The notes: generated from the sequence alone by a model not told the origin. DNA of 27,881 bases from a virus (IMGVR_UViG_3300030333_005513:1-27881), one strand, 5' to 3'. Shown: positions 13,180 through 27,245, counted from the first letter of the stretch. Translations and numbers: made by a program.

Positions 13180-13209
13180 AGCTCTACGTGGCAAATTAGT
13201 GGGATAATT

Positions 13210-15459
13210 ATGTCATCCGGGCTAAAAGAATTTTCCGACCTATCCCTAGAGACTATTAAAGAGTCTGGGGCGGTACCTAAGTCGCGCATTAAAAATGTAA
13301 AAGCGGCAAATGAGATTTACGAAAACCTACGCGACGGCGACGAGGTTTCCGCCACTAACCGAGCGAGAGTTCAGGCTATGTTTGACGGCTCTCCCCCGTA
13401 TTCCGATGCAGTTCTTAGGAACTCCGGTCAGGGTTTCCGATGTAACCTAAACTTCGGGGAGGCTGAGAAGTTTCTTGAGAACGCGATGTCCGCGTATGTG
13501 GACTTAGTAAACTCGGTAGAAACCCTAGTTAGGGTGGAGACTTCCTTCGGTGACCCCAAGCAACAGGTTGAATGGAATCGGATTATGTCCGAGGAATATT
13601 CTTTTCAGTTACGGAAGTGGCCCCGCTTTAACTACGAGTACCTAAACCTCTGCAATCATTTCGTGGGTCATGGTGTAGGCATTAATTATTTCGAAGATGA
13701 ACGTTCTTGGCATTGGCGTTCCACAGGTCTAGGAGACATCGTTATACCTCGTCAGACACAGGCTACAGAGGATGCCTTAGAGGTAGCGGCTTGCCGCCGA
13801 GCCGTGATGGTAAATGACCTATACAAGTATATAGAAGACCCAGAAGTAGCTTCTGAACTTGGGTGGAATGTTTCCGAGGTCCGCAAAGCTATAATGAAGG
13901 CCTCCGCCACCGTGACCACTCACAGTGACTGGGAGAATTTTCAGGCTGAGATTAAGAACAACGATATCTGGGCAGGAGCGAAAGCCGCACGGGTTTCCCT
14001 CGTCCACTTGTGGGTAAAAGAGTTCAACGGAACGGTATCGCATTTCATCACCCTCTCTGACGCGGAGAACAAAGATTTCCTATACAAGAGGATCGGACGT
14101 TACAACAACATCAATCAAGCATTCACGTTCTTCACTTATGGTATTGGGACTAACGGAACTTTCCACAGTATCCGGGGACTAGGGTTCAAACTGTACCACC
14201 ATCTTCAGGTCAGTAACCGGATTCGTTCACAGGCAGTCGATAACGCTATGCTTGCAGGAGCTCCGATGATTCAACCCGAAGACGAAAGGTCTTTGGAGAA
14301 CTTCGCGTTCAACTATTTTGGACCTTTTGCAATTTTACCACCCAACATGAAGTTTGTGGACAGAGCGTCTCCAAACACTTCACAAACCATGATGCCCGTA
14401 CTCAACGACCTGACTCAACAGGTACAAGAGCGTGCAGGACAATACTCAACGGCGGGGGTCTTCGGAAAAGGAGATCGCAGGACACGGTTCGAAGTAGCCG
14501 CCCACCTTGAAGAAGCCGCGAAGTTGAACGTTACCGCGCTCAACCTGTTCTATAACCCGTGGGATAGGTTTCATATGGAGGTGGCCCGCCGATTCTTTAG
14601 ACCAGACTACTCTCCTAGTGAAGGGGGAGGTGATGCTGTTATGGAGTTCCGTGAGAGATGTCTGATGAGAGGAGTGCCTCCCGAGGCAATGCTTGCCATA
14701 GACATACGCAAGACGCGTTCCGTAAGAGCTGTCGGCAGTGGTAGCCAAGCCAAACGTGCTGTCAGTCTCCAGCAGTTGAATGAATTCGCCGGGACTTTCG
14801 ACGCAGAGGGTAGACATAATTTATTCCGGGACCAAGTAGCGGCCCTTGTCGGACACGATGCGGCTGACCGTTACATACCCGCCCGACCAGATCAGCGTAT
14901 CCCGATTGACGCTAAGGTCGCTCAACTTGAGACAGAACACTTGCTTGAAGGCCGAGAGATTGAAGTCTTCCCGAACGAGATACATACAATCCATTTGGAT
15001 GTACACCTACCTATAGTGGAGCAGATGTTTGCCGCCGTGGAAGAAGGTCAGATGGAAATTGAGGACGCCGCCATGCGTTCTATGAATGTGTTCCAGCACT
15101 CCGTCCAACACTTGGAGCAAGTTCAACAAGACCCAACGATAGCCGACCAAGTTGCCCAATATAACCAGAGACTCCAGCAAGTGTCTGAGTTGATTATTAA
15201 CGGGCAGAAGAAACTAGCTAAACTTCAACGCGAGGCCGCCGAGGAAGGCCCTGTTGGGGAGCCGGGTCCCGAAGGGGAAGAAGGACAACCTCAAGTTACT
15301 CCAGAGCAACAGGAGAAACTTATAGAGCATCGACTTAAACTTCAGATGATGCAGGAGAAGCATCAAGCTGAGATGATGATTAAACTACAGAAGGCCGAAC
15401 AGGAGCGCCAACTATCGGACGCCAAGGCCGCGACAGATATTAGGGAGTACTTACGATGA
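13210..15459 (+). CDS. Portal protein
   Basis: A 749-aa protein taken as the portal: it follows terL directly, precedes the scaffold and capsid genes, and has the usual mixed alpha/beta body with a long helical end. Residues about 20-110 include the YENLRDGDE and FDGSPPYSD region typical of portal N-termini. From about residue 620 the chain is rich in Gln and Glu with coiled-coil character (HQAEMMIKLQKAEQERQ near 720-736). The size is large, closer to long portals of podophage-like groups than to lambda-type ones. It would form the dodecameric ring at one vertex, dock terminase and pass DNA. No Shine-Dalgarno site precedes the ATG. The stop overlaps the next start (ATGA). Confidence 0.82.
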   Translation: MSSGLKEFSDLSLETIKESGAVPKSRIKNVKAANEIYENLRDGDEVSATNRARVQAMFDGSPPYSDAVLRNSGQGFRCNLNFGEAEKFLENAMSAYVDLVNSVETLVRVETSFGDPKQQVEWNRIMSEEYSFQLRKWPRFNYEYLNLCNHFVGHGVGINYFEDERSWHWRSTGLGDIVIPRQTQATEDALEVAACRRAVMVNDLYKYIEDPEVASELGWNVSEVRKAIMKASATVTTHSDWENFQAEIKNNDIWAGAKAARVSLVHLWVKEFNGTVSHFITLSDAENKDFLYKRIGRYNNINQAFTFFTYGIGTNGTFHSIRGLGFKLYHHLQVSNRIRSQAVDNAMLAGAPMIQPEDERSLENFAFNYFGPFAILPPNMKFVDRASPNTSQTMMPVLNDLTQQVQERAGQYSTAGVFGKGDRRTRFEVAAHLEEAAKLNVTALNLFYNPWDRFHMEVARRFFRPDYSPSEGGGDAVMEFRERCLMRGVPPEAMLAIDIRKTRSVRAVGSGSQAKRAVSLQQLNEFAGTFDAEGRHNLFRDQVAALVGHDAADRYIPARPDQRIPIDAKVAQLETEHLLEGREIEVFPNEIHTIHLDVHLPIVEQMFAAVEEGQMEIEDAAMRSMNVFQHSVQHLEQVQQDPTIADQVAQYNQRLQQVSELIINGQKKLAKLQREAAEEGPVGEPGPEGEEGQPQVTPEQQEKLIEHRLKLQMMQEKHQAEMMIKLQKAEQERQLSDAKAATDIREYLR

Positions 15460-15716
15460 CAGGAAGTGGTTCAGGATATTCAGGCAGTGGCTCTGGCTAC
15501 ACAGGAAGTGGCGGTTCAGACATGTCCGGGGAGGTAGATTGCTACCACTGGACAGGTTATATGGAGTCAGGCTCAGGTAGTGGCTCAGGTAGTGGAGATG
15601 AATATATAGACCTTTACCCCGTAAATAAGGGGTGTGGGTGTGATTGTGGCGGAGATTTCGAAGAACATATTAAATACGGGTTTGCAAAAAAGCGAGAGTG
15701 GGATAATGATTCCTAG
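15456..15716 (+). CDS. Small Gly-Ser repeat protein with C-x-C-x-C cluster
   Basis: An 86-aa protein of unknown function. Residues 3-20 and 38-47 are almost pure Gly-Ser(-Tyr/Thr) repeats (GSGSGYSGSGSGYTGSG). A Cys cluster, GCGCDCGGD (59-67; C60, C62, C64), follows, then a charged end. It overlaps the portal stop by four bases and abuts the next gene, so it belongs to the head operon and is probably a virion or assembly component. A similar pairing of Gly-rich repeats with C-E-C-G-D occurs in the 536-aa protein at 23600. The cysteines could bind metal or crosslink. A moderate ribosome site (AGGGAG) lies about 8 bp before the ATG. Confidence 0.65.
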   Translation: MTGSGSGYSGSGSGYTGSGGSDMSGEVDCYHWTGYMESGSGSGSGSGDEYIDLYPVNKGCGCDCGGDFEEHIKYGFAKKREWDNDS

Positions 15717-16007
15717 ATGGAAGGTCTAGTTAAAAAGTGGCAAGGCGACGAAGCCGGTAGAGCCGCTTGGCAAGATTTTATACTAACCCCCGAGTTTGAG
15801 CGGGGGTTGAGGGTACTAGAATCCCAAGCCACCCCTGTTGTGGTTATGGGGGAATCTTTGGAGCAGACTGCGAAGAGGCAATCTTTCCAAGCAGGGTTCC
15901 ACACAGCCCTACACTTAATACAAAGACTCCCCACGTTACACTTCAAAAAAGTTCAGGATCAGTTACCTGAGTGGGATTATATACAACCTATAGAAGAAGA
16001 TGAGTGA
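15717..16007 (+). CDS. Hypothetical head-operon protein
   Basis: A 96-aa protein with no family I can name. It is predicted mostly helical: an amphipathic start (MEGLVKKWQGDEAGRAAW), a central region (about 27-62) and a Gln/Pro/Glu end. Many phages carry a small helical protein of this size between portal and scaffold genes, often of unknown role, so a virion or assembly function is plausible. The ATG follows the previous stop with no gap (TAGATG), suggesting translational re-initiation, and its end overlaps the scaffold start by 8 bp. No Shine-Dalgarno site, signal peptide or membrane helix is seen. Confidence 0.65.
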   Translation: MEGLVKKWQGDEAGRAAWQDFILTPEFERGLRVLESQATPVVVMGESLEQTAKRQSFQAGFHTALHLIQRLPTLHFKKVQDQLPEWDYIQPIEEDE

Positions 16008-17199
16008 AGAAGCCGTAGCCGCAGAAGCAGAAGCCCCGGAAACTCCCGTTGCCGAGGCCCCAACTATCCCTAGTACCGAGGAGTCTCTAAGTGCTCTGGA
16101 CGCTGAAATGCAACCTGAGCCTAGCGATGATACAGGTTTTCTGGACTTTATTGGGGATGCGTTGGAGGGTGGTTCCGAAACAACTGAGCCAGAAACTGAG
16201 CCAGAAACTGCGCCAGAAACTACAGAGGAGACAACTTCACCAGATACAGAGGAAGAGTCTCCCGCAACTGATTTAGTCGATGACTTCCCTTCTCCTGAGG
16301 AATTAAGTGAAACATTAGACGAGAAAGCTGTAGCCAAGTGGGGCGAACTTCGATCTGAGTTAGCCGAAGCTAGAGCTAGAGCCGCTGAGTTAGAGGGCCA
16401 GATCACCGAAACCCCTGTAACTGAGGGTACCGAGCAGTTAGAGCAACAGTTGCACGCGCAACAAGAGGCTATTGAGGCATATGAGCGCGAACTGTCTATA
16501 TCTAGGGTGGAGACTTCTGCCGAGTATAAACGGACAGTAGCTGAACCGTTACAGTCTATAATGGATGCCACGGAGGCTCTAGCGGAGAGGAACGAGAAAG
16601 ACCCCGGAGTTTTACTCGACATCTTGTCCGAGAGTAACATTGAGCGTCAAAACAAGAATTTAGAAGAAGTCGCGGCTGAGATGGGCGACCGCGATAAGAT
16701 GATGCTCTATAGAATGGTGGACGACGCCCAAGCCATCTTTGAGCGAGATAGACAACTCAAGGAATACGCGGCAGAAGCCGCGGCAGAACTAGATCACCAC
16801 CAGCAACAAGAGGAAGAAAAGGCTCTACACGACTATACAATGAGTACTAAGTCCTCTGTAAATAAGGTTTACGATAAGTTCGAGTCTGTTCTCCCCGAGT
16901 TAGACGGAACTGATTTGGGGGAACTTAGAAAAAAGACTCTTGAGGATAACTTCTTAGACTTGGGTGTAGACCACCAAGCGTACGCCGTTTCCGCCGGAAC
17001 CTTACTCCCACCTATGGTTAAGGCCCTTAGGGCGAAGGACGCTAAGATAGCCAGCCTAGAAAAACAGCTTTCCAGTTACCAAAAAGCAACACCCAAAGCC
17101 GCCGAGTCCGGGGGCGGGGTTCAGGTAGCCCCCTCCGAGCCTTCTTCTTCAGAAGGATTCGACTTTATGGATGCTATATCCAAAAGATTAGGGGTTTAG
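16000..17199 (+). CDS. Capsid scaffold-like protein
   Basis: A 399-aa acidic protein in the classical place of a scaffold, between portal and major capsid genes. Residues 1-90 are disordered and rich in Glu, Pro, Thr and Ala, with a short P-E-T repeat (about 60-80). Residues 105-330 are largely helical with coiled-coil character (AELEGQ, EQLEQQLHAQQEAIEAYEREL, QQQEEEKALHDY). The end, about 350-399, has another coil, a Gly/Ser/Pro linker and the short helix FDFMDAISKRLGV, which resembles capsid-binding tails of scaffolds. The expected role is to guide prohead assembly and then leave or be cut. No protease gene is recognised nearby. The ATG at 16000 lies within the previous gene. Confidence 0.75.
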   Translation: MSEEAVAAEAEAPETPVAEAPTIPSTEESLSALDAEMQPEPSDDTGFLDFIGDALEGGSETTEPETEPETAPETTEETTSPDTEEESPATDLVDDFPSPEELSETLDEKAVAKWGELRSELAEARARAAELEGQITETPVTEGTEQLEQQLHAQQEAIEAYERELSISRVETSAEYKRTVAEPLQSIMDATEALAERNEKDPGVLLDILSESNIERQNKNLEEVAAEMGDRDKMMLYRMVDDAQAIFERDRQLKEYAAEAAAELDHHQQQEEEKALHDYTMSTKSSVNKVYDKFESVLPELDGTDLGELRKKTLEDNFLDLGVDHQAYAVSAGTLLPPMVKALRAKDAKIASLEKQLSSYQKATPKAAESGGGVQVAPSEPSSSEGFDFMDAISKRLGV

Positions 17200-17211
17200 G
17201 AATTTTTTGTT

Positions 17212-17240
17212 TTGCGACTCAAAAAGTTGTGCAGTATACT
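17212..17240 (+). promoter_or_regulatory. Promoter for the major capsid gene
   Basis: TTGCGA (17212-17217) and TATACT (17235-17240) are exactly 17 bp apart, a good sigma-70-like match. It lies 13 bp after the scaffold stop and about 165 bp before the capsid ATG. A dedicated promoter suits the gene whose product is needed most. Confidence 0.6.
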
Positions 17241-17407
17241 TCTGGTGGAACCACAGATTCCGCAATTTCTGTACAAATAATTTGAGCTAGGCGGTCTACC
17301 CGCCACTCCTCGGCTCAGGGAGATAGTGAAACGGATGCTAAACACTCGTAGGGGTGGGCGTATCCGCGTATATTAATTAACCGCCCTGAGGAGGGCATTT
17401 TAAAACA
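17241..17407 (+). promoter_or_regulatory. Structured leader of the capsid mRNA
   Basis: A gene-free 167-nt leader with several dyads: an outer TGAGC (17283-17287) / GCTCA (17313-17317) enclosing GGCGG (17290-17294) / CCGCC (17300-17304), and near the end a GCCCT-GAGG-AGGGC hairpin whose loop and 3' arm contain the only Shine-Dalgarno-like sequence (GAGGAGG). A 13-codon open frame (17335-17376), MLNTRRGGRIRVY, is also present. The hairpin is followed by ATTTT, so attenuation is possible. I match it to no named RNA family. Confidence 0.5.
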
Positions 17408-18709
17408 ATGGCAACACAGAATCCAAACGGCGGAGGTACCGAGCCATCCATCTCCCACCTTCTGGTGGAAGAGACTGGCAGGATTTCCGGTGACATCTAT
17501 CGCCGTACAATCGACACCTCGCCATGGCTCAAGCTTGTTAAGCAAGGAGCATGGCCAAACGAAATGGGAGACACTCTTAGTGTCTTAACTTACGAGCGCA
17601 CTCTTGCGGCTTCACAGACTTGGTCTAACATCAACAGTGATAGTACCACTTTCTGTATTCCTACCGCGACTGAGATTGACAACGCGCAGACTACTAGGAC
17701 ATACGGCTTGGCGCACACCGCCATTGAGTCGGCTCCTATTTGTGTGCACGGAGTTCGTATGGGATATCGCTTCCGGGAACAGCTTAAAGCGGTCTACGAC
17801 AACCTTGTCGAGAACGTGTCATGGGCTTGGAAGAACCGTTACCGTGACCAATACGAGTCATGGGCCGCGAACCACATCGTAGCTGGTTCTACGACTGCAG
17901 GTGGCTCAACGCTTCTGTCAGGTTCAGGCACCAACATGGGAGGCACTGGTATGCCTACTCAGGACGGTGGCACCGACCTCGTTACAGCCTCGATTTCCCG
18001 TCTTACACAAGGTCTTCTTGACCGAGTCTACATGCAACTTGTGCGTGATGGAGCTGGAATTAATCCGATGGGCCGTGAAAACGGTCGCCCGGTGTTCACC
18101 ATCATCACCAGTGCTGAGTCCTCAGACAAGATTATCCGCGAGAGTGAGATTCGTGACGACTATCGTTACAGCCCACAGGTAAGCGAGCTTCTTAAGCCTC
18201 TTGGCGTTGAGCGCTCTTATCGCGGGTTCTACCACCTCATCGATCCGTTTCCGAAGCGTTATACATATAACGCCGCCTACACAGGCACCGGAACCGGAGG
18301 CGACATGGCCCAGTGGGTCGAGGTTCCAGCCTATACGGAGGACTCTTCTTGGACTGGTAAGGTTGGTTCTAACAGCCGTTACATCGTTAACCCAGACTAT
18401 GAGACTGCCGAGTACGAGGATACCATCGTGTTCCACACAGATGTTATGGAATCATTGATTCCAACACCTATCGCTAACGCAGGTTCAGGCGTGAAGTTCA
18501 ACCCTCTGACTTATCGTGGTAAGTTCGACTTCCTTAATATTAAGGATCGTGTCGAGAACCCCGACGGCTCTTGGGGATACTTCCGCGGAGTTCTGGCCAA
18601 CGCGGCCAAGCCCATCAAGCCTCAGTGGGGCTACGTGATTAGGCATAAGCGTTGCGATCCTCTTACTAAGTTGGATTGTGCCGGAGCTTCCATCACAGGA
18701 GGTCTGTAA
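17408..18709 (+). CDS. Major capsid protein
   Basis: A 433-aa protein identified as the major capsid protein from its position after the scaffold, its length, and its own promoter, leader and terminator. The N-terminus is Gly-rich and flexible; a long helical stretch (about 110-155, FREQLKAVYDNLVENVSWAWKN) fits the spine helix of the HK97 fold; the rest is beta-rich with loops. Codon use differs from its neighbours: it favours C- and T-ending codons such as CGT, AAC and GAC and mostly avoids AGG, CCC and ATA, which are common in adjacent genes. That fits very high expression. The fold assignment is inference. The ATG at 17408 has GAGGAGG 13-14 bp upstream, rather far for a standard site. Confidence 0.82.
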   Translation: MATQNPNGGGTEPSISHLLVEETGRISGDIYRRTIDTSPWLKLVKQGAWPNEMGDTLSVLTYERTLAASQTWSNINSDSTTFCIPTATEIDNAQTTRTYGLAHTAIESAPICVHGVRMGYRFREQLKAVYDNLVENVSWAWKNRYRDQYESWAANHIVAGSTTAGGSTLLSGSGTNMGGTGMPTQDGGTDLVTASISRLTQGLLDRVYMQLVRDGAGINPMGRENGRPVFTIITSAESSDKIIRESEIRDDYRYSPQVSELLKPLGVERSYRGFYHLIDPFPKRYTYNAAYTGTGTGGDMAQWVEVPAYTEDSSWTGKVGSNSRYIVNPDYETAEYEDTIVFHTDVMESLIPTPIANAGSGVKFNPLTYRGKFDFLNIKDRVENPDGSWGYFRGVLANAAKPIKPQWGYVIRHKRCDPLTKLDCAGASITGGL

Positions 18710-18745
18710 GATCGACATAAGGATTACCTTAATGGTGATTACACG

Positions 18746-18787
18746 GGTGCCTGCGGCTCAAATGGGTCGCAGGCACCTTACTTTTAT
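18746..18787 (+). terminator. Intrinsic terminator after the capsid gene
   Basis: GGTGCCTGCG (18746-18755) pairs perfectly with CGCAGGCACC (18768-18777); four further wobble-containing pairs can extend it into the loop. It is followed by TTACTTTTAT. It lies 36 bp past the capsid stop and isolates the capsid transcript. Confidence 0.85.
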
Positions 18788-18795
18788 GGTATAGT
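18787..18795 (+). promoter_or_regulatory. Extended -10 box before the lysis block
   Basis: TGGTATAGT fits an extended -10 (TGn + TATAGT). No convincing -35 is present. It sits directly after the terminator and five bases before an ATG at 18801, so a lysis transcript starting here would be almost leaderless. Confidence 0.35.
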
Positions 18796-18800
18796 CATTG

Positions 18801-18998
18801 ATGCCCTTCGGGGATTTATTAAGCATGAACACTAGCGAGATATTGACTAGAGGGGCTACAGGCATATTTGGGTCCGTCTTAGCAGTGATTAGTCCCTACC
18901 AACAGCAATTAGAATGGACAATTCAAATCCTTGGTGGATTGTTAGGGATAGCAGTGGCTCTAGTGAGCCTTTATCATCTAACAAAAAAGAAAAAATGA
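18801..18998 (+). CDS. Holin-like small membrane protein
   Basis: A 65-aa protein with hydrophobic stretches at about 20-33 (TGIFGSVLAVISPY) and 39-60 (WTIQILGGLLGIAVALVSLYHL), ending in a run of lysines (KKKK). Small size, one or two membrane helices and a basic tail fit a holin, the protein that makes the inner-membrane hole timing lysis. The start is uncertain: ATG at 18801 follows the -10-like box by five bases; ATG at 18825 (MNTSEIL) gives 57 aa with the same membrane part. Its stop overlaps the start of a second holin-like gene, and spanins and an endolysin follow, so a lysis role is well supported by context. Confidence 0.65.
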   Translation: MPFGDLLSMNTSEILTRGATGIFGSVLAVISPYQQQLEWTIQILGGLLGIAVALVSLYHLTKKKK

Positions 18999-19162
18999 GT
19001 AAAGAAGCAATACTGGGAGTGGTACGTCATATACTGACCTTCATGGGTGGCTTCGCCGCCGAAAGGGGCATCGCCTCTGGCGAGGAAGTCCAGACAGGCG
19101 TTGGTGCCGTTATTACTCTTATTGGACTGGTTTGGTCAGTCTTAAATAAGAGGGGTAAGTGA
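18995..19162 (+). CDS. Second holin-like protein (Pam3-gp28-like)
   Basis: A 55-aa protein. The pattern RHILTFMGGFAAERGIASGEE, then GAVITLIGLVWSVLNKR (38-53), resembles the Pam3-gp28 family of putative phage holins: helix, short charged turn, membrane helix ending WS-x-x-NKR. The start used is the ATG at 18995, overlapping the previous stop (ATGA); an open frame begins earlier but those codons overlap the first holin. Two holin-like genes in tandem may act as holin and antiholin, or as partners in one pore. The stop overlaps the next start (GTGA). Confidence 0.65.
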   Translation: MSKEAILGVVRHILTFMGGFAAERGIASGEEVQTGVGAVITLIGLVWSVLNKRGK

Positions 19163-19344
19163 CCTTTTTTAAGCTCATAAAAGCGGCCCTTGAGGCCTAT
19201 ATAGCTTATGCAAAGTGGCGACAGAGAACCTATATCTACAAAATGGAGGATGAGGTGGATGAGCTTGCCGCTGATGCTTCTCCTGTTTCAAAGTTGCGCA
19301 TCGAACGACTCGCAAAGCGACTTAAACAAGAGCGCACTTCATGA
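19159..19344 (+). CDS. Rz-like inner spanin candidate
   Basis: A 61-aa protein starting with GTG overlapping the previous stop, with GAGGGG as a nearby ribosome site. The first 20 residues (FFKLIKAALEAYIAYAKW) are hydrophobic or amphipathic and the rest is a charged helix (KMEDEVDELAADASPVSKLRIERLAKRLKQE). This is the outline of a short inner spanin: membrane end plus periplasmic coil. A lipoprotein gene overlaps it in another frame, the classic Rz/Rz1 layout. The membrane segment contains two Lys and a Glu, so it is weaker than usual; a soluble lysis accessory protein is the alternative. Confidence 0.5.
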   Translation: MTFFKLIKAALEAYIAYAKWRQRTYIYKMEDEVDELAADASPVSKLRIERLAKRLKQERTS

Positions 19345-19480
19345 TCCCCCTACCGTTACCTTGATTGAGGGGCAGGAGTATCAATTTGTAGAAGGCCGAC
19401 TTGTGGGTAGGAAAAACCACAAGTGGCATTCGGATTACAGTTACAGGCGTGCTATAATCATAGGTTCCGGGGATAAATGA
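19250..19480 (+). CDS. Rz1-like outer-membrane lipoprotein (outer spanin)
   Basis: A 76-aa product from ATG 19250, overlapping the Rz-like gene by 95 bp in a different frame. It begins with a short signal peptide, MRWMSLPLMLLLFQS, followed by Cys (codon at 19295), a lipoprotein processing site (FQS-C, slightly off the usual L-x-G/A-C). The mature part is 61 residues and ends DYSYRRAIIIGSGDK. Lipoproteins nested in or overlapping an Rz gene are outer spanins of Gram-negative phages and join with Rz to fuse the two membranes at lysis. The frame is open from an ATG at 19208, but 19250 gives the better signal peptide. The last 16 codons are duplicated, diverged, at 20265-20312. The stop overlaps the next ATG. 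Confidence 0.65.
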   Translation: MRWMSLPLMLLLFQSCASNDSQSDLNKSALHDPPTVTLIEGQEYQFVEGRLVGRKNHKWHSDYSYRRAIIIGSGDK

Positions 19481-20223
19481 TATCAGCAATATTTTCCTGC
19501 ATGAACCGGGAGTACAACCTTGCGAAAGGTTTACCCTCTTGGTTGAAGTACGAGGAAATAGGAGACATCGTCATTGTTGACTGGTCTTCTAAAACCCCAT
19601 TACTGGATAATGAGTTTTTGTGTGGTTTGATGGACAACGACCCACGCATCAAATTAGTTCGGGTAAGCGGGGAGAAGGTGTTCAACTTAGCTAAGTCCTA
19701 TAACCTAGCTTTTAAGTTTACGGACCCGAAAAACAAAATACTGCTTAAGTTGGATTGCGACTATCTAAGTCTTAACCGGGGGTGGGTGGACAACCTAGAG
19801 TTAAAGGGAGGAGAACTAAATAAGTTCTTTGTTACAGGCATAGAACACGGAACTTCGCCGCATTTTTGCGGACTTATGCTCATAAACAAAAAGGACTTTC
19901 TAGGGTACAATGAAAACTTTCAGGGGTGGGGCTACGATGACAATGATTTGTATAAACGTCTACAAGGAAGGGTAGACCAGAGGACCTTTGGAGGCACACC
20001 TGTACATGTCCGACCTCCCACGCAAGTGTACGATTATGTTCACCACTTTCCCCACGGCGATGATCTCAGGGTTGAAAACTACGAAATTAAAGATCGTGAG
20101 GAGTCACACCGCTATAATGAGTCTCGTTCAGGCAGTTACTGGACCCCCAAAATTTACCGTATATTGAAGCGAGAGAGTCAGTATGTGGAACTTGAGTTCT
20201 TTGATACCCCATTCCCTGAGTAA
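19477..20223 (+). CDS. GT2/GT7-type glycosyltransferase
   Basis: A 248-aa protein with a GT-A fold: the opening ISAIFSCMNREYNL (2-15), a metal-binding DxD (Asp93-Cys-Asp95 in LKLDCDY) and a block GYNENFQGWGYDDNDLYKRL (143-162) that matches the C-terminal galactosyltransferase motif (Glyco_transf_7C). It transfers a sugar from a nucleotide donor; donor and acceptor are unknown. It is cytoplasmic as far as can be seen. It lies inside the lysis block, between the Rz1-like gene (ATGA overlap) and a scar of gene fragments followed by the endolysin, so it appears to be inserted cargo. The extended -10 TGCTATAAT at 19451-19458, within the end of the Rz1 gene, may give it a promoter, though those codons are also conserved for protein reasons. 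Confidence 0.85.
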   Translation: MISAIFSCMNREYNLAKGLPSWLKYEEIGDIVIVDWSSKTPLLDNEFLCGLMDNDPRIKLVRVSGEKVFNLAKSYNLAFKFTDPKNKILLKLDCDYLSLNRGWVDNLELKGGELNKFFVTGIEHGTSPHFCGLMLINKKDFLGYNENFQGWGYDDNDLYKRLQGRVDQRTFGGTPVHVRPPTQVYDYVHHFPHGDDLRVENYEIKDREESHRYNESRSGSYWTPKIYRILKRESQYVELEFFDTPFPE

Positions 20224-20224
20224 C

Positions 20225-20281
20225 ATGTTTTGGAAAAAATTCTTCCGTAAAAAGTCCCCTTCACCCGGATTATCCCTATAG
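20225..20281 (+). pseudogene. Truncated copy of the endolysin gene start
   Basis: An 18-codon remnant, MFWKKFFRKKSPSPGLSL followed by TAG. Its first 41 bases match the start of the endolysin gene (20983-21023) with three mismatches, so 14 residues are identical. It begins two bases after the glycosyltransferase stop, exactly as the real endolysin start overlaps the end of the gene before it. After codon 14 the sequence changes to the Rz1-like fragment. It is a recombination scar, probably not functional. Confidence 0.85.
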
Positions 20282-20312
20282 ACGTGCTATATTTATAGGG
20301 ACCGGAGCTAAA
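20265..20312 (+). pseudogene. Fragment of an Rz1-like gene end
   Basis: Aligned without gaps at an offset of 835 bases, 20266-20312 matches the end of the Rz1-like gene (19431-19477) at 35 of 47 positions. Translated in that frame it reads PDYPYRRAIFIGTGAK against SDYSYRRAIIIGSGDK: 11 of 16 identical. There is no upstream part of the gene. The lower identity than in the adjoining endolysin fragment suggests that it came from a related but diverged phage rather than a fresh local duplication. Confidence 0.8.
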
Positions 20313-20317
20313 CAATT

Positions 20318-20983
20318 ATGGCAGACAACTTAAGATATCACCCCAGAGAAGCCGCCAAGAGGGACGCGGTTAAGGATTATGTGATTAAGAAGTGGCGTAA
20401 GGATGTCGCGGCAGGGCGGGAAGCCGCTCAAGCTGAAGCCGCCCGGAGGCGGGAGGCTCAATGGGATATCCCATCACCCGGCACCCCCAATGCTCCCGGA
20501 ATTCCCCGCGATCAGTTCGGTAGACCTCACACGTTCCCAAAAAGGCTCCCTTCTAGTGAGGCTATAGGGGCTATAATTCCACGCCGAGTCCGGCCCCTCC
20601 CAGCAGAAAACCTCCCAGCAGAAAACCTCGCAGAACCCCCAGCACAACCCCCAAGGGCTATAGAGCCACTCCGGCCCCTACAGCCTTGGCAAAAGAAGGA
20701 CATGGAAAACCTCGCAGAACCCCCAGCACAATCCCCAATGCCTATAGAGCCAGTCCGGAGGAGTGGGCTTGGGCCAGCTAAGAGGGCGGTGCCGGGACTT
20801 AATCTTAAGAATTCCGTGATTGACCCCGCGCGGAGACGCCTCCGTAAAGCTACCCGCACCCGCGATATTATGTCCAAAGGGATGCGGGGGGCAGGTGTCG
20901 TAGACCCAATGGATCGGGTATTTCCGCCCGCCCCAGTACGCGCAAGGCCTCAAGGGGGGATTGACCCTAACTACTGGCATTAA
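20318..20983 (+). CDS. Proline-rich hypothetical protein with internal repeats
   Basis: A 221-aa basic protein of unknown function. Residues 1-50 are a charged helix (Lys, Arg, Ala, Glu), and 50-155 are Pro-rich and probably disordered. Within it PAENL occurs twice in tandem and a longer unit, ENLAEPPAQ-P-IEP, occurs twice (nucleotide repeats at 20621-20674 and 20705-20758). The end is basic with GLGP, RRRLRKATRTRD and a Pro-rich tail. There is no signal peptide or membrane segment. It lies between the scar and the endolysin and shares its stop with the endolysin ATG (TAATG), so it looks like a second inserted cargo gene. It may be a virion or nucleic-acid-binding protein. A CGGAG stands 10-11 bp before the ATG. 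Confidence 0.6.
   Translation: MADNLRYHPREAAKRDAVKDYVIKKWRKDVAAGREAAQAEAARRREAQWDIPSPGTPNAPGIPRDQFGRPHTFPKRLPSSEAIGAIIPRRVRPLPAENLPAENLAEPPAQPPRAIEPLRPLQPWQKKDMENLAEPPAQSPMPIEPVRRSGLGPAKRAVPGLNLKNSVIDPARRRLRKATRTRDIMSKGMRGAGVVDPMDRVFPPAPVRARPQGGIDPNYWH
20621..20758 (+). repeat. 54-bp in-frame direct repeat
   Basis: Two copies (20621-20674 and 20705-20758) start GAAAACCTCGCAGAACCCCC and match at 50 of 54 positions, 84 bp apart. A 15-bp unit coding PAENL is also doubled just upstream. The spacing keeps frame, so repeat number can vary without breaking the protein. Confidence 0.8.
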
Positions 20984-21471
20984 TGTTCTGGAAAAAATTC
21001 TTCCGTAAAAAGTCCCCATCCCCACCAAAAGAGTCGGGAATGGCCATAACAGCCTACGATCTGGCTATGCGCTACGTAGGGATCAAGGAAGTCCCCGGAA
21101 CGGAGGATAACCCCCTCCTATTAGCTATGCTCCAGCTAGATAACGATTGGCCCCAACACGATGAAGTTCCGTGGTGTTCAGGATTTATGAACTGGGTTGC
21201 ATGGCATTTAAGGCTACCGAGGTCCAAGAATCTCATGGCTAGGAGCTGGCTGAATGTGGGAAAACCTATTTCTTTGACGCGGGCAGTCCCCGGATTCGAT
21301 GTTGTGATCTTATGGAGGGGAACTCCTGAGGGAGCCAGCGGACACGTCGGCCTTTACGCGGGGCATAGCGACGGGAAAATAAAGATTTTAGGGGGAAACC
21401 AGAACAACGCAGTTACTATATCTGAGTACCCTGCAAATAGATTGTTGGGGATTCGTCGATTATATGGTTAA
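20983..21471 (+). CDS. Endolysin, NlpC/P60-like cysteine peptidase (TIGR02594 type)
   Basis: A 162-aa cell-wall peptidase. After a basic aromatic leader (MFWKKFFRKKSPSP) the domain begins near residue 20 with AYDLAMRYVGIKEVPG, typical of the TIGR02594 family. Catalytic Cys65 is in VPWCSGFMNWVAW, His121 in SGHVGLYAG, and a polar third residue in GGNQNN (137-142). It would cut peptide links in peptidoglycan once holins open the membrane. No signal peptide is seen; the leader could be a weak membrane anchor or a signal-arrest segment, but is short. Its start overlaps the stop of the proline-rich gene, and its first 14 codons are duplicated at 20225. MAIT at residue 20 is an alternative start, but the duplication argues that the long leader is real. 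Confidence 0.85.
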   Translation: MFWKKFFRKKSPSPPKESGMAITAYDLAMRYVGIKEVPGTEDNPLLLAMLQLDNDWPQHDEVPWCSGFMNWVAWHLRLPRSKNLMARSWLNVGKPISLTRAVPGFDVVILWRGTPEGASGHVGLYAGHSDGKIKILGGNQNNAVTISEYPANRLLGIRRLYG

Positions 21472-21482
21472 TTACTACTATT

Positions 21483-21713
21483 ATGACCGGATATTCTGCA
21501 GGCATTAGAGTTAACGCTGGAGCCACTGTACACTACGTGAAGATAACCAATGGGGTTATGGACATTGTGTCAGTGGCTTCGGGCGACGATATGGGGTTTA
21601 AGCTTACGACGTGCAACATAGATACCACTAACAATATTATTAGTGGTTATGATGCGTCGGGGAACAGGTACATTTTTGACAAAGAGTCCGATGTGACTGT
21701 CACGTTGGTCTAA
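21483..21713 (+). CDS. Small beta-rich hypothetical protein
   Basis: A 76-aa protein with no known family that I can name. It alternates short strands and turns (VHYVKITNG, MDIVSVASG, GFKLTTCNID, YIFDKESDVTVTLV) and looks like a small beta sandwich or barrel. It lies 11 bp after the endolysin and 9 bp before the large virion-type gene, in the late operon, so a minor structural role (decoration, head completion) is plausible. No signal peptide, membrane helix or ribosome site is seen. Confidence 0.6.
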   Translation: MTGYSAGIRVNAGATVHYVKITNGVMDIVSVASGDDMGFKLTTCNIDTTNNIISGYDASGNRYIFDKESDVTVTLV

Positions 21714-21722
21714 TTTCGTCCC

Positions 21723-23600
21723 ATGCCCCAACCTCCATCACCACCCCCGCGTAAGCAGAGGGTCGTAAACTTCGTATCCCCGGAGATTGCGGACCTTATC
21801 TTCTACGAGTTGCGTGATAGTAGGCTCCCCAAATACAAAAATCCCCCTGCGTATGGTACCGCCCACCCAGACGCCACAACTTATCCCCACCATAAGTTAG
21901 TTTTAATACGCCCAGCCACCGAGGCTGAAGATGGGTGGCAACGTTGGTATTATGCACGCGCCCGAGGCACTTCCGTACCTACGTCCAACCCTAACGGGAC
22001 TTTTACAGATCAAGATGAGTATAATTTTGAGATTGAGGGAGACGATCAGTTAACCCGTACATATATAATTCCCCGGGCTCAGTTTTTAGGTAACGCGGCG
22101 CCTTATCAATCTTATACTTACGCCGCCCCCACAGCAGGGACGGCGGATTCGCGTTTTACAGATTTTAAGTTTAGGGAGGAGAATATCCTCAGAACCCGAG
22201 ATAGTACCATAGATGCCTATTTCATAATAATTCAGCGGTTTTACTACAAGTCCGAAAAACTACGAGCCGTCTCCGAAACGGGTACGGCTCGGGGCGAGGA
22301 AGGTTCCGAAACTAGGCGAGAGGCCGATAGGCTGGCCTATTCCATTGAGCCGGGGATTGTGCTTCAACGCAGTTCAAGACTTACTGACGAAGAGTTATGG
22401 GATAACACCGAAAATCGCCTCGCCCTGCGAGCGGGTGTTAACAATACATCTATAACTAATCGGGTGGGTTTCATAGAGACGGACACCTCTGAGTTATCTC
22501 AAACTGAACCAGCCTCCAAGAATGAACCCCAATTTACCAAAAGGGTAGTTACGACAGACTCCGACGGAGTAGATGCTGTATGGGCGGCTAACCGCAAGGT
22601 AAGAGCCTCTGACCCAGCCAACGGCAGTGAAATGTCTACGTTCTTGGGTGGAGGTATCGTGGATGTAGACATCAGTCTAGTAGCAGACACTGCTTCCGCT
22701 GATTCTGGGTTTTTAGTGGTAGGCTCCCAAGTGTCTCCTATGGGTGGAGGTGACGCGATCAGAACTACAAAGACTATAGATGAATTTCCTATACTTAGGG
22801 AGGATCGTTACGATAGTCAACTAGACGCCATGTTGACTATTACGAAGAGCGTCATCGTCCCCGGTTCAGAGGTGGGCTCTAAGTCAGGTTGTGGTTCTCT
22901 CGTAGAGATTAAACCTGTAGATAAGTGGCGTTCTATTAAGATACAGACTTCTGTAGGAGCCTCTGCCATAAGGACCGAAATTATTCCCGGAGTGTTTAAC
23001 TACCGCTTTCCTGCTGTTATTGAGAAAGCTTACTTTGATTGGGCATGGGCGTATGCTTATCATGGGAGTAACCGGGCCGAGGACTCTGATATGGCTTTAA
23101 TATTCCATGTCACCGAGTCCGTCCAACAAGCAGTGAGAGGTAGGACGCGTAGGATAATTACATGTAATACCGACGGTATTATAGAGGAAAACCCCGTAAT
23201 TAGTTTCAAACCCCAGAGCCACACAGTTAGCTTTATGTCCGCAGGTAGTTATGCTAGTAAAAAAACTGTTTGGGCCAAGGCTGGTGTACGTACTTGGCAA
23301 ACCCCACTAGCCCTTTGTAAAGGCATTGATATCCTCTTACCCCCAAAACTTGCGTCAGGTGTCCAAGGCGTCCACGTCGATGGAGACTGGACTGCGGCCA
23401 TCCCGGCCACCTCCCCCGCAGGTATGCCAGCGGAAGGAACTCCCATGACTATTGATATCAAAACCCGCAGACTCAAACTTGGTTACTGGGAGGTTTTAAT
23501 TACCGAGATTTTTAGTCCCGGCCCCGGTATGTCTGAGGACACTTTATTAACTTTGACCCCCACCGATTTAGAAAGCACTATGGATGGGGAGGAGTCATAA
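21723..23600 (+). CDS. Large structural-type protein, family unknown
   Basis: A 625-aa late protein I cannot assign. It starts with a Pro-rich stretch, then VVNFVSPEIADLIFYELRDSRLPKY, and is beta-rich throughout with many polar loops. Size, late position and composition fit a virion protein, most likely a tail, fibre or tail-spike-base component. A short charged segment near 187-200 (TARGEEGSETRREADR) could be a linker between two domains. No catalytic motif is obvious. It shares its stop with the start of the next gene (TAATG), so the two are probably made in a fixed ratio and may form one appendage. Confidence 0.6.
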   Translation: MPQPPSPPPRKQRVVNFVSPEIADLIFYELRDSRLPKYKNPPAYGTAHPDATTYPHHKLVLIRPATEAEDGWQRWYYARARGTSVPTSNPNGTFTDQDEYNFEIEGDDQLTRTYIIPRAQFLGNAAPYQSYTYAAPTAGTADSRFTDFKFREENILRTRDSTIDAYFIIIQRFYYKSEKLRAVSETGTARGEEGSETRREADRLAYSIEPGIVLQRSSRLTDEELWDNTENRLALRAGVNNTSITNRVGFIETDTSELSQTEPASKNEPQFTKRVVTTDSDGVDAVWAANRKVRASDPANGSEMSTFLGGGIVDVDISLVADTASADSGFLVVGSQVSPMGGGDAIRTTKTIDEFPILREDRYDSQLDAMLTITKSVIVPGSEVGSKSGCGSLVEIKPVDKWRSIKIQTSVGASAIRTEIIPGVFNYRFPAVIEKAYFDWAWAYAYHGSNRAEDSDMALIFHVTESVQQAVRGRTRRIITCNTDGIIEENPVISFKPQSHTVSFMSAGSYASKKTVWAKAGVRTWQTPLALCKGIDILLPPKLASGVQGVHVDGDWTAAIPATSPAGMPAEGTPMTIDIKTRRLKLGYWEVLITEIFSPGPGMSEDTLLTLTPTDLESTMDGEES

Positions 23601-25210
23601 TGGCTAATAACGAAGATCGTTTAATAGCTAGGGTAGTAGCGGCTGTTAAGTCTTGGCTGGAACAACGGGGTATAGGTGGGGGTGGTGGAGGTGACCCCCG
23701 CGATTTAGATGGTGATGGTAGGGTCACTCGACGTGAGAGAGCCGCGACAAAAAGAGCCGACAGGTTAGCGAAACGGAATGCGAGGAAAGCGAGGCGTGAT
23801 TCGGGTTTACTCCCGGGCATGACCCGAGCACAAACGGCGGACTTTCGCCGTATGGAACAAGCTCAAGCCGACAGAGCCGCCCAACAGAACAACAAACCCC
23901 AACCCCCACCGCCCGCCCCTCCGGGGGCTAATGTCGCCAACCAAGCGGCACCTAATTTTGATGACCAGCTTAGAGCCGTAGCGGCAAGAGAGAGTGAGGA
24001 AAAAGCCAAGATTGAGGCCGCACTTGCAGACGCTAAGTCATCTGCGGATACCGATGTTAACGATGGCGCTACAGGCGTTATTGGGGATGTGGGCCTACAA
24101 GGAGTTGCTGGCGCTGAGGGGAATAAAAACATTATAACAAATTCCCCCAATGAGAAGAACATAGGTAAAGCAACCAACTTAAACCCACAACCGGGGTTTG
24201 TAACTGTACGGGCTGAAAACGAAAATGGCACACGTAAGTGTTTTGGTGTTTTAGGGTATGAGGCAACTGGTTGTGGGGATGGGTTTCCCGCCGTTAGAAC
24301 TGTTTGGTGGGAACCGGAATTTGGGTTCGGCACAGGCACTGGGGTTGGGGTTGGTACCGGTAGAGGGACCGGAGACGGACCACCTTCGGTCAGCATAGCT
24401 AAAGGGCTTAACCTAGTTCCCAGTAGTAATACTTACGGAGAACATCATCCCGAGACTTTGTGGAAAGCCATATTCACGGCGGCCAACGGGACGCATGAGT
24501 TAACCCCCGACGCCACTAATTATTTATGGGTTAAGATAAGTTATTCTGAACGAGAGGTTTTGGTAGCCGATGAGCTATGGCAAAATTATGGCATAGAAGA
24601 CTACGACTTCGACTTTGATTATGACTATAATTTCGAGTTTAACTTCACAGGAGGATTTACTGGGGCGGGCACAGGAAGGGGTACAGGAACAGGTATAGCA
24701 ACTGTCCACGCGGGGCTAGACATGGATGGTCAAAGTCTAGAATATGGCTCCAGCGGTGTTGGTACGGGTTGCGAGTGTGGCGATGTCCCTGTTACCGGAC
24801 ATGCGTATTTCACAGGAGATAATGAAATACTCATACCCGTATATACGGATGTGTACGGGGAATTTTATGGAACGGGGGCGGGGTCTGGCTCAGGTTCAGG
24901 TTCCGGCACTGGATACACTTATAAACCTGAGGTTTTCGACGGGTCTATAAAGCAGTACATGCTCCATACTTCGTCCGCACCTATCGTAGTTACTCCCATA
25001 ACAACAAGTTCTACAGCACCTGCTGACACTAAAACTGATAAACACCAGTTTTTAGGTTCCGTAACTCTTAACGAAAAAGGTGAGGTAACCGCATGGGAGT
25101 GGCGTGTAAATCACGCTTTTTACTGGAATGCCCCGGATTTTGTGGCAGGTAGTTATGGCAAGACCAAAAAATCACCCCCTCCTAATTACGACCCTCCAGA
25201 CATCTCTTAA
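23600..25210 (+). CDS. Multi-part Gly-rich virion-type protein, candidate fibre or receptor-binding protein
   Basis: A 536-aa mosaic. Residues 1-20 form a helix; 25-34 are a poly-Gly linker; 35-46 (DLDGDGRVTRRE) fit a 12-residue EF-hand calcium loop (Asp35, Asp37, Asp39, Thr43, Glu46); 50-150 are basic and helical with a Pro-rich break. Five collagen-like G-x-y triplets follow (159-174). Then come a globular part with WWEPEF, Gly-Thr repeats (243-260), an alternating acid-aromatic run DYDFDFDYDYNFEFNF (334-349), more Gly-Thr repeats (351-365), CECGD (391-395) and a Gly-Ser run (427-437). Collagen triplets and Gly repeats are common in phage fibres, hence the call. A strong ribosome site, GGGGAGGAG (23586-23594), precedes the ATG by 5 bp, suggesting high expression. 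Confidence 0.6.
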   Translation: MANNEDRLIARVVAAVKSWLEQRGIGGGGGGDPRDLDGDGRVTRRERAATKRADRLAKRNARKARRDSGLLPGMTRAQTADFRRMEQAQADRAAQQNNKPQPPPPAPPGANVANQAAPNFDDQLRAVAARESEEKAKIEAALADAKSSADTDVNDGATGVIGDVGLQGVAGAEGNKNIITNSPNEKNIGKATNLNPQPGFVTVRAENENGTRKCFGVLGYEATGCGDGFPAVRTVWWEPEFGFGTGTGVGVGTGRGTGDGPPSVSIAKGLNLVPSSNTYGEHHPETLWKAIFTAANGTHELTPDATNYLWVKISYSEREVLVADELWQNYGIEDYDFDFDYDYNFEFNFTGGFTGAGTGRGTGTGIATVHAGLDMDGQSLEYGSSGVGTGCECGDVPVTGHAYFTGDNEILIPVYTDVYGEFYGTGAGSGSGSGSGTGYTYKPEVFDGSIKQYMLHTSSAPIVVTPITTSSTAPADTKTDKHQFLGSVTLNEKGEVTAWEWRVNHAFYWNAPDFVAGSYGKTKKSPPPNYDPPDIS

Positions 25211-25216
25211 TATTTA

Positions 25217-26074
25217 GTGGACTCCAAGATATCCATAGTTAGTAAACTTAATGGTATAGGGGACTCTATGGTGTCCATGTGGTGTGTTGAGGGGTTCAAA
25301 CAGGCGGGACTCGACGTAGATTTTTTTGTACGCCCTGACCATGTGGGGATGTGCAGTTTCTTTCACGACAAAGTTTATCCCAAGGATAACGCCCCTATAA
25401 GTGCTATAACACTCAACTTAAACTCCACAGGAGGGCAGATGGCGGGACTACCTCCAGATAAGGCGGCTAGAATGGATTGGTGGTGGAAGTGGGCGGCAGA
25501 TCAGTTTACCGGAGATATACCTGAAAATGCTTCCCCCCAAAAGCCTCAGCTTATAAAGCCATTGGAAAAAGTCCCCCAGTTTGAGAATGCCGTGGTAATA
25601 GCCCCCGAATGTTGTTTCCTCAACCGAAAGTGGAGTATAGGCCATTACAGCAGGTTAGTTCTTTTGTTGAAACAGGCAGGGTACGAAGTGATTTCATTTG
25701 TTGCGCAGGAAGATTCTCAGGTAAAGGCTATAAAAGACATAGTTTACCATTACGGGTTCTCTCTAGAGTATTTAGTGAGGGCGATATACTCCTGTAAGTT
25801 GCTTATAGGTAATGACAGTGGCCCCGCCCACATTGCAGGAACCGTAGGAACCCCATGCATACCCATCCACGCCATAATGCCACCCAACCTCTTGTGGGAA
25901 CGCTATAGTAACTTCTACCCCGTATTTGCAACCGACTCTTGTGCGGGGTGCGGGTTTACTCCCGATTTAGGTTACCACCCCCATTCATGTAGCGCGATGT
26001 GTTCTGCTTTAGAGGGTATTAGTGCTGAGGAAGTATACAAAGTCGCTGTCAATGCTCTTGAGCAGATAAATTAG
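25217..26074 (+). CDS. GT9-family glycosyltransferase (heptosyltransferase-like)
   Basis: A 285-aa protein with the GT-B features of family 9 (ADP-heptose:LPS transferases). The N-terminal loop LNGIGDSMVS (11-20) matches the family's G-x-G-D site. The C-terminal donor site reads LLIGNDSGPAHIAGTVGTP (195-213), with Asp200, Ser201, Gly202 and His205. Four cysteines near the end (242, 245, 258, 262) may bind metal, an uncommon addition. The start is GTG at 25217. In bacteria these enzymes extend the LPS inner core; here the gene sits among virion-protein genes. It may alter host LPS, which blocks superinfection, or modify a virion glycan. The family is clear; the sugar is not. Confidence 0.88.
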   Translation: MDSKISIVSKLNGIGDSMVSMWCVEGFKQAGLDVDFFVRPDHVGMCSFFHDKVYPKDNAPISAITLNLNSTGGQMAGLPPDKAARMDWWWKWAADQFTGDIPENASPQKPQLIKPLEKVPQFENAVVIAPECCFLNRKWSIGHYSRLVLLLKQAGYEVISFVAQEDSQVKAIKDIVYHYGFSLEYLVRAIYSCKLLIGNDSGPAHIAGTVGTPCIPIHAIMPPNLLWERYSNFYPVFATDSCAGCGFTPDLGYHPHSCSAMCSALEGISAEEVYKVAVNALEQIN

Positions 26075-26085
26075 CGTTTTTCCTT

Positions 26086-26107
26086 GTAGGGGTTATATTT
26101 CTCCTAC
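26086..26107 (+). promoter_or_regulatory. Hairpin / -10-like box before the 26111 gene
   Basis: GTAGGGG (26086-26092) pairs with CTCCTAC (26101-26107) with one G-T pair, leaving the 8-nt loop TTATATTT. The stem ends three bases before the ATG at 26111, so it would hide the start region in mRNA. The loop also contains TATATT, which could serve as a -10 in the DNA. Confidence 0.4.
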
Positions 26108-26110
26108 GAT

Positions 26111-26785
26111 ATGGCAAATGAGCGAAACCTTACCCTCGCTGAGGCGCGGGCCCTTCTATATAAACATGCTACAGACGATGCGTCAGATTCCGACGGAACG
26201 TTCAAAGCCCGACTAAATGAGGCTATAGAACGTATTTATACTGAAGGTATTTGGGATGGTTTAACTGTACGTGCAGATTTATCTTCTTATGTAGCTAATG
26301 AGGTACTAACCCTCCCCTACGCATATGAAGCAATATTGTCGATAGCGATTGATGATAATCCTACCCCTATCATGGGTAAGCAGTACGAGTTCATGCGAGG
26401 AGGCCCCGGCATTGAGGACGCGGGTGAGGGAGGAGCATTCGTCATAGACTTAGGTTTTGATAGTACTGGGGACGCTCTCCGTCGTTATAAGATTTTACAG
26501 GATGTTGATTCAGGAACAGAGATAGAGGGTCTGATTAAACGCAGATATGTGTACATCTCTAGTGACTCTGATGTTATTGTCCCATCTAATATAGGAGCCC
26601 TTAAACACGCATTGCTCGCTATAACTTACGAGGATGAAGGAGATATACAGAGAAGTACCGCTTTCTGGGATGAGTGCTATAATATACTCCAATCAGCTAA
26701 ACAGGTTAACCGCGCAGGTATAATCAACCCTAACCCCCAACAACAATGGGGTTTTATGTCTAATAAACCACACAGCATTTTATAA
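26111..26785 (+). CDS. Candidate head-tail connector (neck) protein
   Basis: A 224-aa protein. The helical start (LTLAEARALLYKHATDD, FKARLNEAIERIYTEGIWDGLT), a beta-rich middle and a final helix with GALKHALLAITYEDEGDIQRSTAFWDECYNILQSAKQ resemble adaptor or tail-tube-A type connector proteins of short-tailed phages. These bind under the portal and close the head. The resemblance is to general layout, not to a diagnostic motif, so the assignment is tentative. No Shine-Dalgarno site is present and a hairpin abuts the ATG. The stop overlaps the next start (TAATG). Confidence 0.45.
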   Translation: MANERNLTLAEARALLYKHATDDASDSDGTFKARLNEAIERIYTEGIWDGLTVRADLSSYVANEVLTLPYAYEAILSIAIDDNPTPIMGKQYEFMRGGPGIEDAGEGGAFVIDLGFDSTGDALRRYKILQDVDSGTEIEGLIKRRYVYISSDSDVIVPSNIGALKHALLAITYEDEGDIQRSTAFWDECYNILQSAKQVNRAGIINPNPQQQWGFMSNKPHSIL

Positions 26786-27240
26786 TGGCCGAATACGCAA
26801 AACCTTTCTCTGGTAAGGATCAACGGGAGTTTGCCCGTAGGCGATCCGTGATAAATCAAATACGTGCCGCGAAGATTCGTGAGAGACGCGCCGCCCGTAA
26901 AGCGGGAGATCATGGCAAGGACGCCGCAATCCTCATGCAAGGCGAAAAGATGGGAATCCCATTTGGCGGAGTAGCTTCTGCAGAGAATTTAGATCAACTT
27001 GTTTTGTCAGAGATGCACATGAACAAGCAGATTGCAGATAAAAGGGATGCGCAACGTGCTAACATGTTGTCTCGACAGGCCCCCCAACAACCTGACCCGG
27101 TTCCGGGTAAAGGTCCCTCAGGTCCCGCCGAACAAGAGACTAATATTAATGTTGTATCACCCGGAGATACTTTCTTCGGATTTCTGGGGAGGCAAGACCC
27201 CCTAAAGACTGCCTTATACATGGAAGATTTAATTGAATAA
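26785..27240 (+). CDS. Hypothetical basic late protein
   Basis: A 151-aa protein. Residues 5-45 are very basic (REFARRRSVINQIRAAKIRERRAARK), likely a helix that touches DNA or the inner capsid. Residues 60-100 are helical and 100-125 Pro/Gly-rich; the end (PGDTFFGFLGRQDPLKTALYMEDLIE) is hydrophobic with an acidic tail. It is translationally coupled to the preceding connector-like gene and lies 5 bp before the last gene of the window. An internal virion or ejection-related role is possible. No family is recognised. Confidence 0.6.
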   Translation: MAEYAKPFSGKDQREFARRRSVINQIRAAKIRERRAARKAGDHGKDAAILMQGEKMGIPFGGVASAENLDQLVLSEMHMNKQIADKRDAQRANMLSRQAPQQPDPVPGKGPSGPAEQETNINVVSPGDTFFGFLGRQDPLKTALYMEDLIE

Positions 27241-27245
27241 TTAAT

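Follow-up and report, generated by a model that had tools for sequence, protein, structure and literature searches.

The locus considered here raises the question of how fragments of an endolysin gene and of an Rz1 gene came to lie between two cargo genes of a virus, and whether the Rz1-endolysin boundary is a place at which related phages exchange cargo. The window, that is the whole stretch of 27,881 nucleotides which was analysed, had been given in a preliminary description the order Rz1-like gene, glycosyltransferase (GT) gene, endolysin piece, Rz1 piece, proline-rich gene and endolysin gene, and all six parts were located in the sequence at their places.

Layout of the lysis locus

The features of the locus are as follows (window coordinates).

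18798..18998, + strand, small membrane protein, putatively holin-like; ORF, labelled from its position and a weak holin match of its L018 homologue
18995..19162, + strand, holin of the Pam3 gp28 family (PF23987, 60.5 bits against a cut-off of 27)
19159..19344, + strand, putative Rz-like gene overlapping Rz1; ORF, labelled from the nested arrangement
19208..19480, + strand, full Rz1-like gene with FQSC lipobox, nested in another frame of Rz; left border of the cargo interval
19387..19408, no strand, mapped crossover of the sister phage L002 relative to the window (60 informative sites)
19477..20223, + strand, GT, first cargo gene, beta-1,4-galactosyltransferase-like (PF02709, 30.1 bits against a cut-off of 23)
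20225..20265, + strand, scar part 1, truncated endolysin-start piece of the first 14 codons (38/41 to 20983-21023)
20225..20982, + strand, 758-bp unit formed by the scar and the second cassette, absent from the sister phages L001/L002
about 20262..20316, + strand, scar part 2, 3' end of a second, diverged Rz1 gene (42/50 to L003 Rz1, 35/47 to own Rz1)
20318..20983, + strand, 221-aa proline-rich basic protein, second cargo gene; ORF, no relative found
20983..21471, + strand, full endolysin-like gene, TIGR02594 / CHAP-like (TIGR02594 match); right border of the cargo interval

The homologue of the first holin-like gene in L018 (5612-5791) gave a P21 holin match at an E-value of 0.063 only. The Rz-like protein was found in four relatives at 100% amino acid identity and had no family match. 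The Rz1-like gene overlaps 19159-19344 in another frame, encodes a lipobox cysteine and lies beside holin and endolysin genes, which is the arrangement of an Rz1 spanin, and the SC of its lipobox is invariant in the 12 aligned members. Its name is taken from this gene arrangement because the protein gave no hit to a known Rz1 family in Pfam, PHROGs or NCBIfam. An Rz1 profile search returned 231 relatives among viral contigs; the one match in bacterial genomes covered 15 residues and was rejected as spurious. The endolysin-like protein matched TIGR02594 with 91.8 bits, above the curated cut-off of 70.55, and its CHAP match was below cut-off.

The scar between the two cargo genes

The endolysin piece was confirmed to match the start of the full endolysin gene at 38 of 41 bases (E 3.6e-12), its score of 35 standing against a best of 14 in 2000 shuffles of the 94-bp gap. 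The Rz1 piece likewise agreed with the window's own Rz1 gene at 35 of 47 bases (score 23, maximum 13 in 2000 shuffles of the gap) and, by direct reading, at 11 of 16 residues (PDYPYRRAIFIGTGAK against SDYSYRRAIIIGSGDK), as previously described. This piece resembles the Rz1 gene of GT-less relatives more closely than that of the window: it matched the L003 allele at 42 of 50 bases with a score of 34 (shuffle maximum 15), the second-best place for the L003 Rz1 tail in the window scored just 12, and on inspection it was of the GT-less type at most informative places. Its stop codon has changed from TAA to CAA, so the piece is read as a decayed remnant; within it, a Shine-Dalgarno-like GGAG is retained upstream of the ATG of the 221-aa gene. 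The endolysin piece has TTT as its second codon, like the sister phages (L002), and the full endolysin of the window has TTC there, like the GT-less L003 and L004. The exact scar junction was absent from the other viral contigs searched, and the double-cassette form is known from one metagenomic record, the window.

Sister phages with a single cassette

Protein searches of viral contigs with the endolysin and Rz1 returned nine close records, which form with the window a close clade of 10 (L001/L002, L003, L004, L012 and L015-L018). L001/L002 were found to be colinear with the window over 9951-27881, with about 95% DNA identity overall and 95-98% in long blocks. In these phages the order is Rz1-GT-endolysin, with the full endolysin directly after the GT stop and no scar. 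Their GT is 93% identical in amino acids to that of the window and is carried by these two other records only. The Rz1-endolysin interval measures 1502 bp in the window and 744 bp in L002 with colinear flanks, and the difference of 758 bp is the sole gene-level difference between the window and L001/L002 over 9951-27881. The 758-bp unit thus stands between two genes that are adjacent in relatives and is absent in L002, and the single-cassette relatives which had been predicted do exist in the form of the GT alone.

To the right of the scar, most of the sequence agrees at 95-99% with the sister phage that the left side also resembles. The flanks on either side of the interval are of the sister type, with the exceptions of a diverged holin/Rz stretch to the left and of the region 23000-25000 to the right.

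Recombination in the flanks

At the sites which separate the window from L003/L004/L012, L002 is of the L003/L004/L012 type at 42 of 43 classed sites from 18816 to 19387 and of the window type at all 14 sites from 19408 on (Fisher p 1.9e-12). The breakpoint is located inside Rz1, 70-90 bp upstream of the cargo, and the Rz1 tail therefore travels with the cargo. Moreover, the third-codon identity between L002 and L004, which is 0.44 in the putative capsid gene, reaches 0.97 and 0.70 in the first and second holin-like genes, 0.84 in Rz1 and 0.72 in the endolysin gene. The high Rz/Rz1 identity may be due in part to overlapping frames, which do not account for that of the first holin-like gene or the endolysin. 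The Rz1 breakpoint and the jump in identity relative to the capsid gene both show that core genes flanking the interval recombine.

Origin of the double cassette

The preliminary description had explained the scar by two relatives, each with its own cargo gene, joined end to end. The part of this claim that is supported is the derivation of the scar from joined cassettes; one end-to-end join between two parents is at odds with the sister-like right flank. Since a simple join would leave a right flank of the donor type, the scar calls for either another exchange close to the endolysin start or a duplication whose cargo was later replaced, and we favour an illegitimate join with a homologous return crossover. 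The order of events, the donor and the benefit of the cargo to the phage are what we infer. Cargo genes lie among the lysis genes and start on the Rz1 stop codon; they would be exchanged for the most part through homologous crossovers within conserved flanking sequence, namely the 3' half of Rz1 and the 5' end of the endolysin, so that each cassette would travel with its own Rz1 tail. An occasional illegitimate join or deletion would change the number of cassettes and leave a scar. In the window, a unit made of an Rz1' tail, the 221-aa gene and an endolysin start would have come from a relative and been joined behind the GT cassette, the illegitimate junction lying in the endolysin start, where the partners would have shared a few bases at most. 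The return crossover into the endolysin of the recipient would have been homologous, again in the endolysin start, and the Rz1' remnant would later have decayed with the exception of the ribosome-binding stretch.

The polarity may also be the reverse, the double form being older and the second cassette having been removed from L001/L002 through a deletion between the 41-bp endolysin-start repeats. This fits nearly as well as gain: the endolysin start of L002 is as a deletion would leave it, with TTT as codon 2 followed by the downstream letters of the window's full copy, and loss with a scar is known elsewhere in the interval (L003 against L012, see below). However, the double form would still need a prior joining event, which is one extra step, and the TTC codon 2 of the full copy, matching L003/L004, suits import of the 221-aa unit from a GT-less relative. 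We regard the reversed order as a credible but less likely course of events. A tandem duplication of Rz1 tail, GT and endolysin start in one genome, with the second GT then replaced by the 221-aa gene, would yield the same order of parts through one illegitimate junction; but it appears improbable, as the Rz1 remnant agrees better with the L003/L004/L012 allele (42/50) than with the Rz1 gene of the window itself (35/47), so that the copy would have to be overwritten up to the junction, and a second GT has left no trace. Very improbable is the reading that the fragments have been retained for a function, one as a leader peptide of 18 codons (MFWKKFFRKKSPSPGLSL) and the other as the ribosome-binding region of the 221-aa gene. 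The endolysin piece does retain its ATG and upstream context as in L002, and GGAG is kept before the 221-aa ATG despite the lost Rz1 stop, but the fragments occur in no relative, the Rz1 part is decaying, and a kept ribosome-binding stretch would account for the persistence of a few bases and not for their origin. Least probable of all is an assembly chimera of two co-occurring strains, which the metagenomic source of the contig and a junction unique to the window might suggest, but against which stand the lack of any long word common to both parental alleles (the longest match on either side is 16-19 bp and none spans the junction), the lost stop of the Rz1 remnant and shifted start of the next gene, which are decay unlike a fresh chimera, and the match of left and right flanks to the same sister.

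Alternative cargo in the close clade and the wider group

Seven different contents of the interval were found in the 10 close records.

Window: GT, scar and 221-aa gene
L001/L002: GT
L003: 117-aa gene
L012: 109-aa relative of the L003 117-aa gene and a second gene of at least 202 aa, which runs off the contig
L004: 127-aa and 123-aa genes
L015/L016: 330-aa protein with HESGH
L017/L018: 351-aa relative of the 330-aa protein, with HEARH, and a 148-aa gene

Relatives with other cargo, as had been anticipated, are thus L003, L004, L012 and L015-L018, and the six-part order is not common to all relatives. No empty site was found among the 10 close records. The endolysin of L015-L018 is an Amidase_3 unrelated to that of the window, so the right border changes too; the endolysin type differs between clades and this border is not universal.

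A second scar was found in L003, where the gap between cargo and endolysin contains a 27-bp stretch that corresponds (26/27) to the start of the second cassette gene of L012; the first cassette genes of these two records are 98% identical over 313 bp, and no other copy of the second L012 gene was found. The 27-bp scar is read as an independent deletion remnant. Between L015/L016 and L017/L018, the 3' end of the first cassette gene and the spacer are shared at 83-96% DNA identity, the first cassette proteins being 39% identical overall, and the 148-aa gene is present or absent exactly at the spacer end.

For the wider group, 80 of the 231 Rz1 relatives from the profile search were kept, and the survey comprised 88 loci, 78 of them outside the close clade and 74 of those reaching the amidase gene. 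The cargo-less relatives that had been predicted are the rule here, as 61 of the 74 loci have the order Rz1-(holin)-amidase without cargo; the other 13 carry inserts of at least five families. Ten have a gene directly 3' of Rz1, which is a 100/101-aa membrane protein in six and a protein of 163, 139, 214 or 230 aa in one each, and three have an insert between holin and amidase (122, 224 and 123 aa). In 81 of the 88 loci the start of the next frame falls no more than 3 bases before or 1 base past the last base of the Rz1 stop codon, and inserts therefore remain coupled to Rz1. A single cargo family (148/139/163/122/123 aa, together with the 123-aa gene of L004) spans both clades in different slots.

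The 100/101-aa membrane protein (L066:4440-4745 and relatives) has homologues at other sites in other genomes, including near the capsid gene (L041:10414-10812, minus strand; L046:1955-2284; L048:2925-3254, minus strand), and its gene probably moves between sites.

The varied contents, the scars and the Rz1 crossover all support the earlier suggestion that the Rz1-endolysin boundary is a cargo-exchange hot spot, and cargo families are common to distant members. We consider it highly probable that the interval has this role in this uncultured phage group. Cultured phages gave no match by DNA, capsid or Rz1, their matches being limited to remote ones for the terminase and to a single cyanophage GT at 29%; the group is large and consists of uncultured bacterial viruses, mostly ocean-sampled.

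Other variable places in the genome

Within the core of the window (7390-21713) only 19477-20983 is lineage-specific, and all other genes are in order among close relatives; a small repeat-rich gene at 15456-15716 is poorly conserved within this otherwise ordered core. The interval is not the sole variable place of the genome, since accessory genes lie outside the core (an FkbM-like methyltransferase at 6554-7213 and a GT at 804-1586). The FkbM-like gene (minus strand) stands between the DNA polymerase gene and the next gene and is absent there in the genomes G003, G004 and G005; from this comparison it is a putative second accessory site. Further sugar-transfer genes are the one at 804-1586 (minus strand, Gly_transf_sug) and one at 25217-26074 (plus strand, GT9 heptosyltransferase-like), giving four sugar-related genes in the window with the cargo GT and the FkbM-like gene. 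A contig of the sister phage G002 (L039:608-16066) holds a single open frame of 5152 codons.

Cargo proteins

The cargo GT is predicted to be galactosyltransferase-like, with a sequence match to beta4GalT1 in the PDB at an E-value of 1.9e-4. For the 221-aa protein (pI 11.0, 15% Pro) no relatives or family matches were found; its gene has an internal 54-bp direct repeat (93%) at 20620-20760 with ENLAEPPAQ units. The close-clade cassettes other than the 221-aa protein and the GT have pI values of 9.5-10.8, and as 33% of background families have a pI above 9.4, basic pI is weak evidence alone. By eye, the NLMRxSV- and FFPTEN-like ends of the basic close-clade cassettes look like a possible shared motif. 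The 330-aa and 351-aa proteins (L015:4127-5119 with HESGH, L018:6270-7325 with HEARH) gave no match in Pfam, PHROGs or PDB sequences, and their HExxH motif makes them possible candidate metallopeptidases. Predicted structures were poor, with a mean pLDDT of 32 for the GT and 43 for the HExxH protein.

The GC content is 0.439 in the GT gene and 0.584 in the 221-aa gene against 0.489, and the third-codon GC of 0.50 and 0.53 is ordinary. A consensus scan of the cargo for its own promoter or terminator gave nothing above chance, with 2 promoter-like sites against 3.0 expected and 1 terminator-like site (minus strand) against 3.1.

A scaffold-like terminal motif

The gene at 16000-17199 is named a putative scaffold from its position before the putative capsid gene; its product ends in FDFMDAISKRLGV and had no family hit. 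Scaffold homologues of the wider group end in SFAEAIEAAL, TFEERVESAF and SFEEKVAAAF. The motif [STD]F.[ED][AKRVS][VI][EAST], which was written from scaffold tails with position 3 left open and partly chosen after seeing the hits, matched a mean of 5.5 out of 385 other families, where 0.64 were expected and the highest count in 300 shuffles was 4, an enrichment that is indicative. The matches lie mostly near protein ends, and the carriers are phage lysozymes (PF00959), a small basic protein, the 148-family cassettes (at the N-terminus), the 214-aa cassette of L036 and a tail lysozyme. Some putative scaffolds have a second, N-terminal copy. The motif is absent from the window's GT and 221-aa proteins, and the tail of the window's own scaffold gave only chance-like internal matches elsewhere in the window. 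Loci with the motif are L054:6890-7453 (minus strand), L056:5543-6172 (minus strand), L033:2206-2769 and 2776-2943, L036:92-736, L017:1524-1970, L048:5659-6825 (minus strand), L050:8501-9712 (minus strand), L052:2302-3528 and the C-terminus of 16000-17199 in the window.

The scaffold-like motif may possibly be an encapsidation or packaging tag, a role with precedents in the T4 capsid targeting sequences (PMC9026906) and in SaPI CpmB (PMC6893505). More speculatively, and in our view with low probability, the interval would be a supply locus for encapsidated and injected proteins, with small basic or enzymatic cargo swapped as cassettes and, in the wider clade, a scaffold-mimicking helix ([STD]F.[ED].[VI][EAST]) that loads it into the procapsid.

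Comparison with known systems

Morons are extra genes between genes that are adjacent in relatives, and they are not needed in all members (PMC4378225). As with lambdoid morons, close relatives may have or lack the interval cargo. A classic moron is equipped with a promoter and a terminator of its own and is often aberrant in composition, whereas the interval shows neither signal above chance, its cargo genes overlap the Rz1 stop and the third-codon GC of the GT and 221-aa genes is ordinary, their overall GC of 0.439 and 0.584 lying on either side of 0.489. The regions of genomic plasticity of Pseudomonas Mu-like phages are intervals between core genes with zero to several alternative accessory ORFs (PMC4378225). 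The present interval resembles them in using one core-gene boundary, in holding non-homologous genes in each relative and in having empty sites in the wider group. It differs in its position within the lysis module; moreover, the flanks of the Mu-like regions showed no recognisable recombinase target in common (PMC4378225), whereas here a crossover inside Rz1 and preserved scars are found.

The internal proteins of T4 are poorly conserved, basic, may replace one another and share a short terminal targeting peptide (PMC9026906). In a similar way, most close-clade cassettes have a pI of 9.5-11 and some wider-group cassettes share a terminal motif. Unlike in T4, the window cassettes are without the motif, and the motif resembles a scaffold C-terminus with no cleavage known. 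CpmB of SaPI is a non-scaffold protein with the C-terminal coat-binding motif of the 80alpha scaffold (PMC6893505); CpmB changes capsid size, whereas the motif carriers here are lysozymes and small cargo proteins. The class of mechanism, morons and mosaicism, is already known, and the Rz1-endolysin exchange site with its cargo appears to be undescribed.

Conclusions

This study has located a defined exchange site in the lysis module of phages for which it found no cultured relative. Its intermediates, i.e. scars, single and double cassettes and empty sites, indicate how cargo moves, by homologous crossovers in Rz1 and the endolysin with occasional illegitimate joins. The cargo of the interval provides candidate host-takeover or counter-defence genes, for which position alone suffices as a search criterion. 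Should the scaffold-like tag turn out to be a packaging signal, it would further provide a rule by which injected proteins could be predicted from sequence in a large uncultured group.
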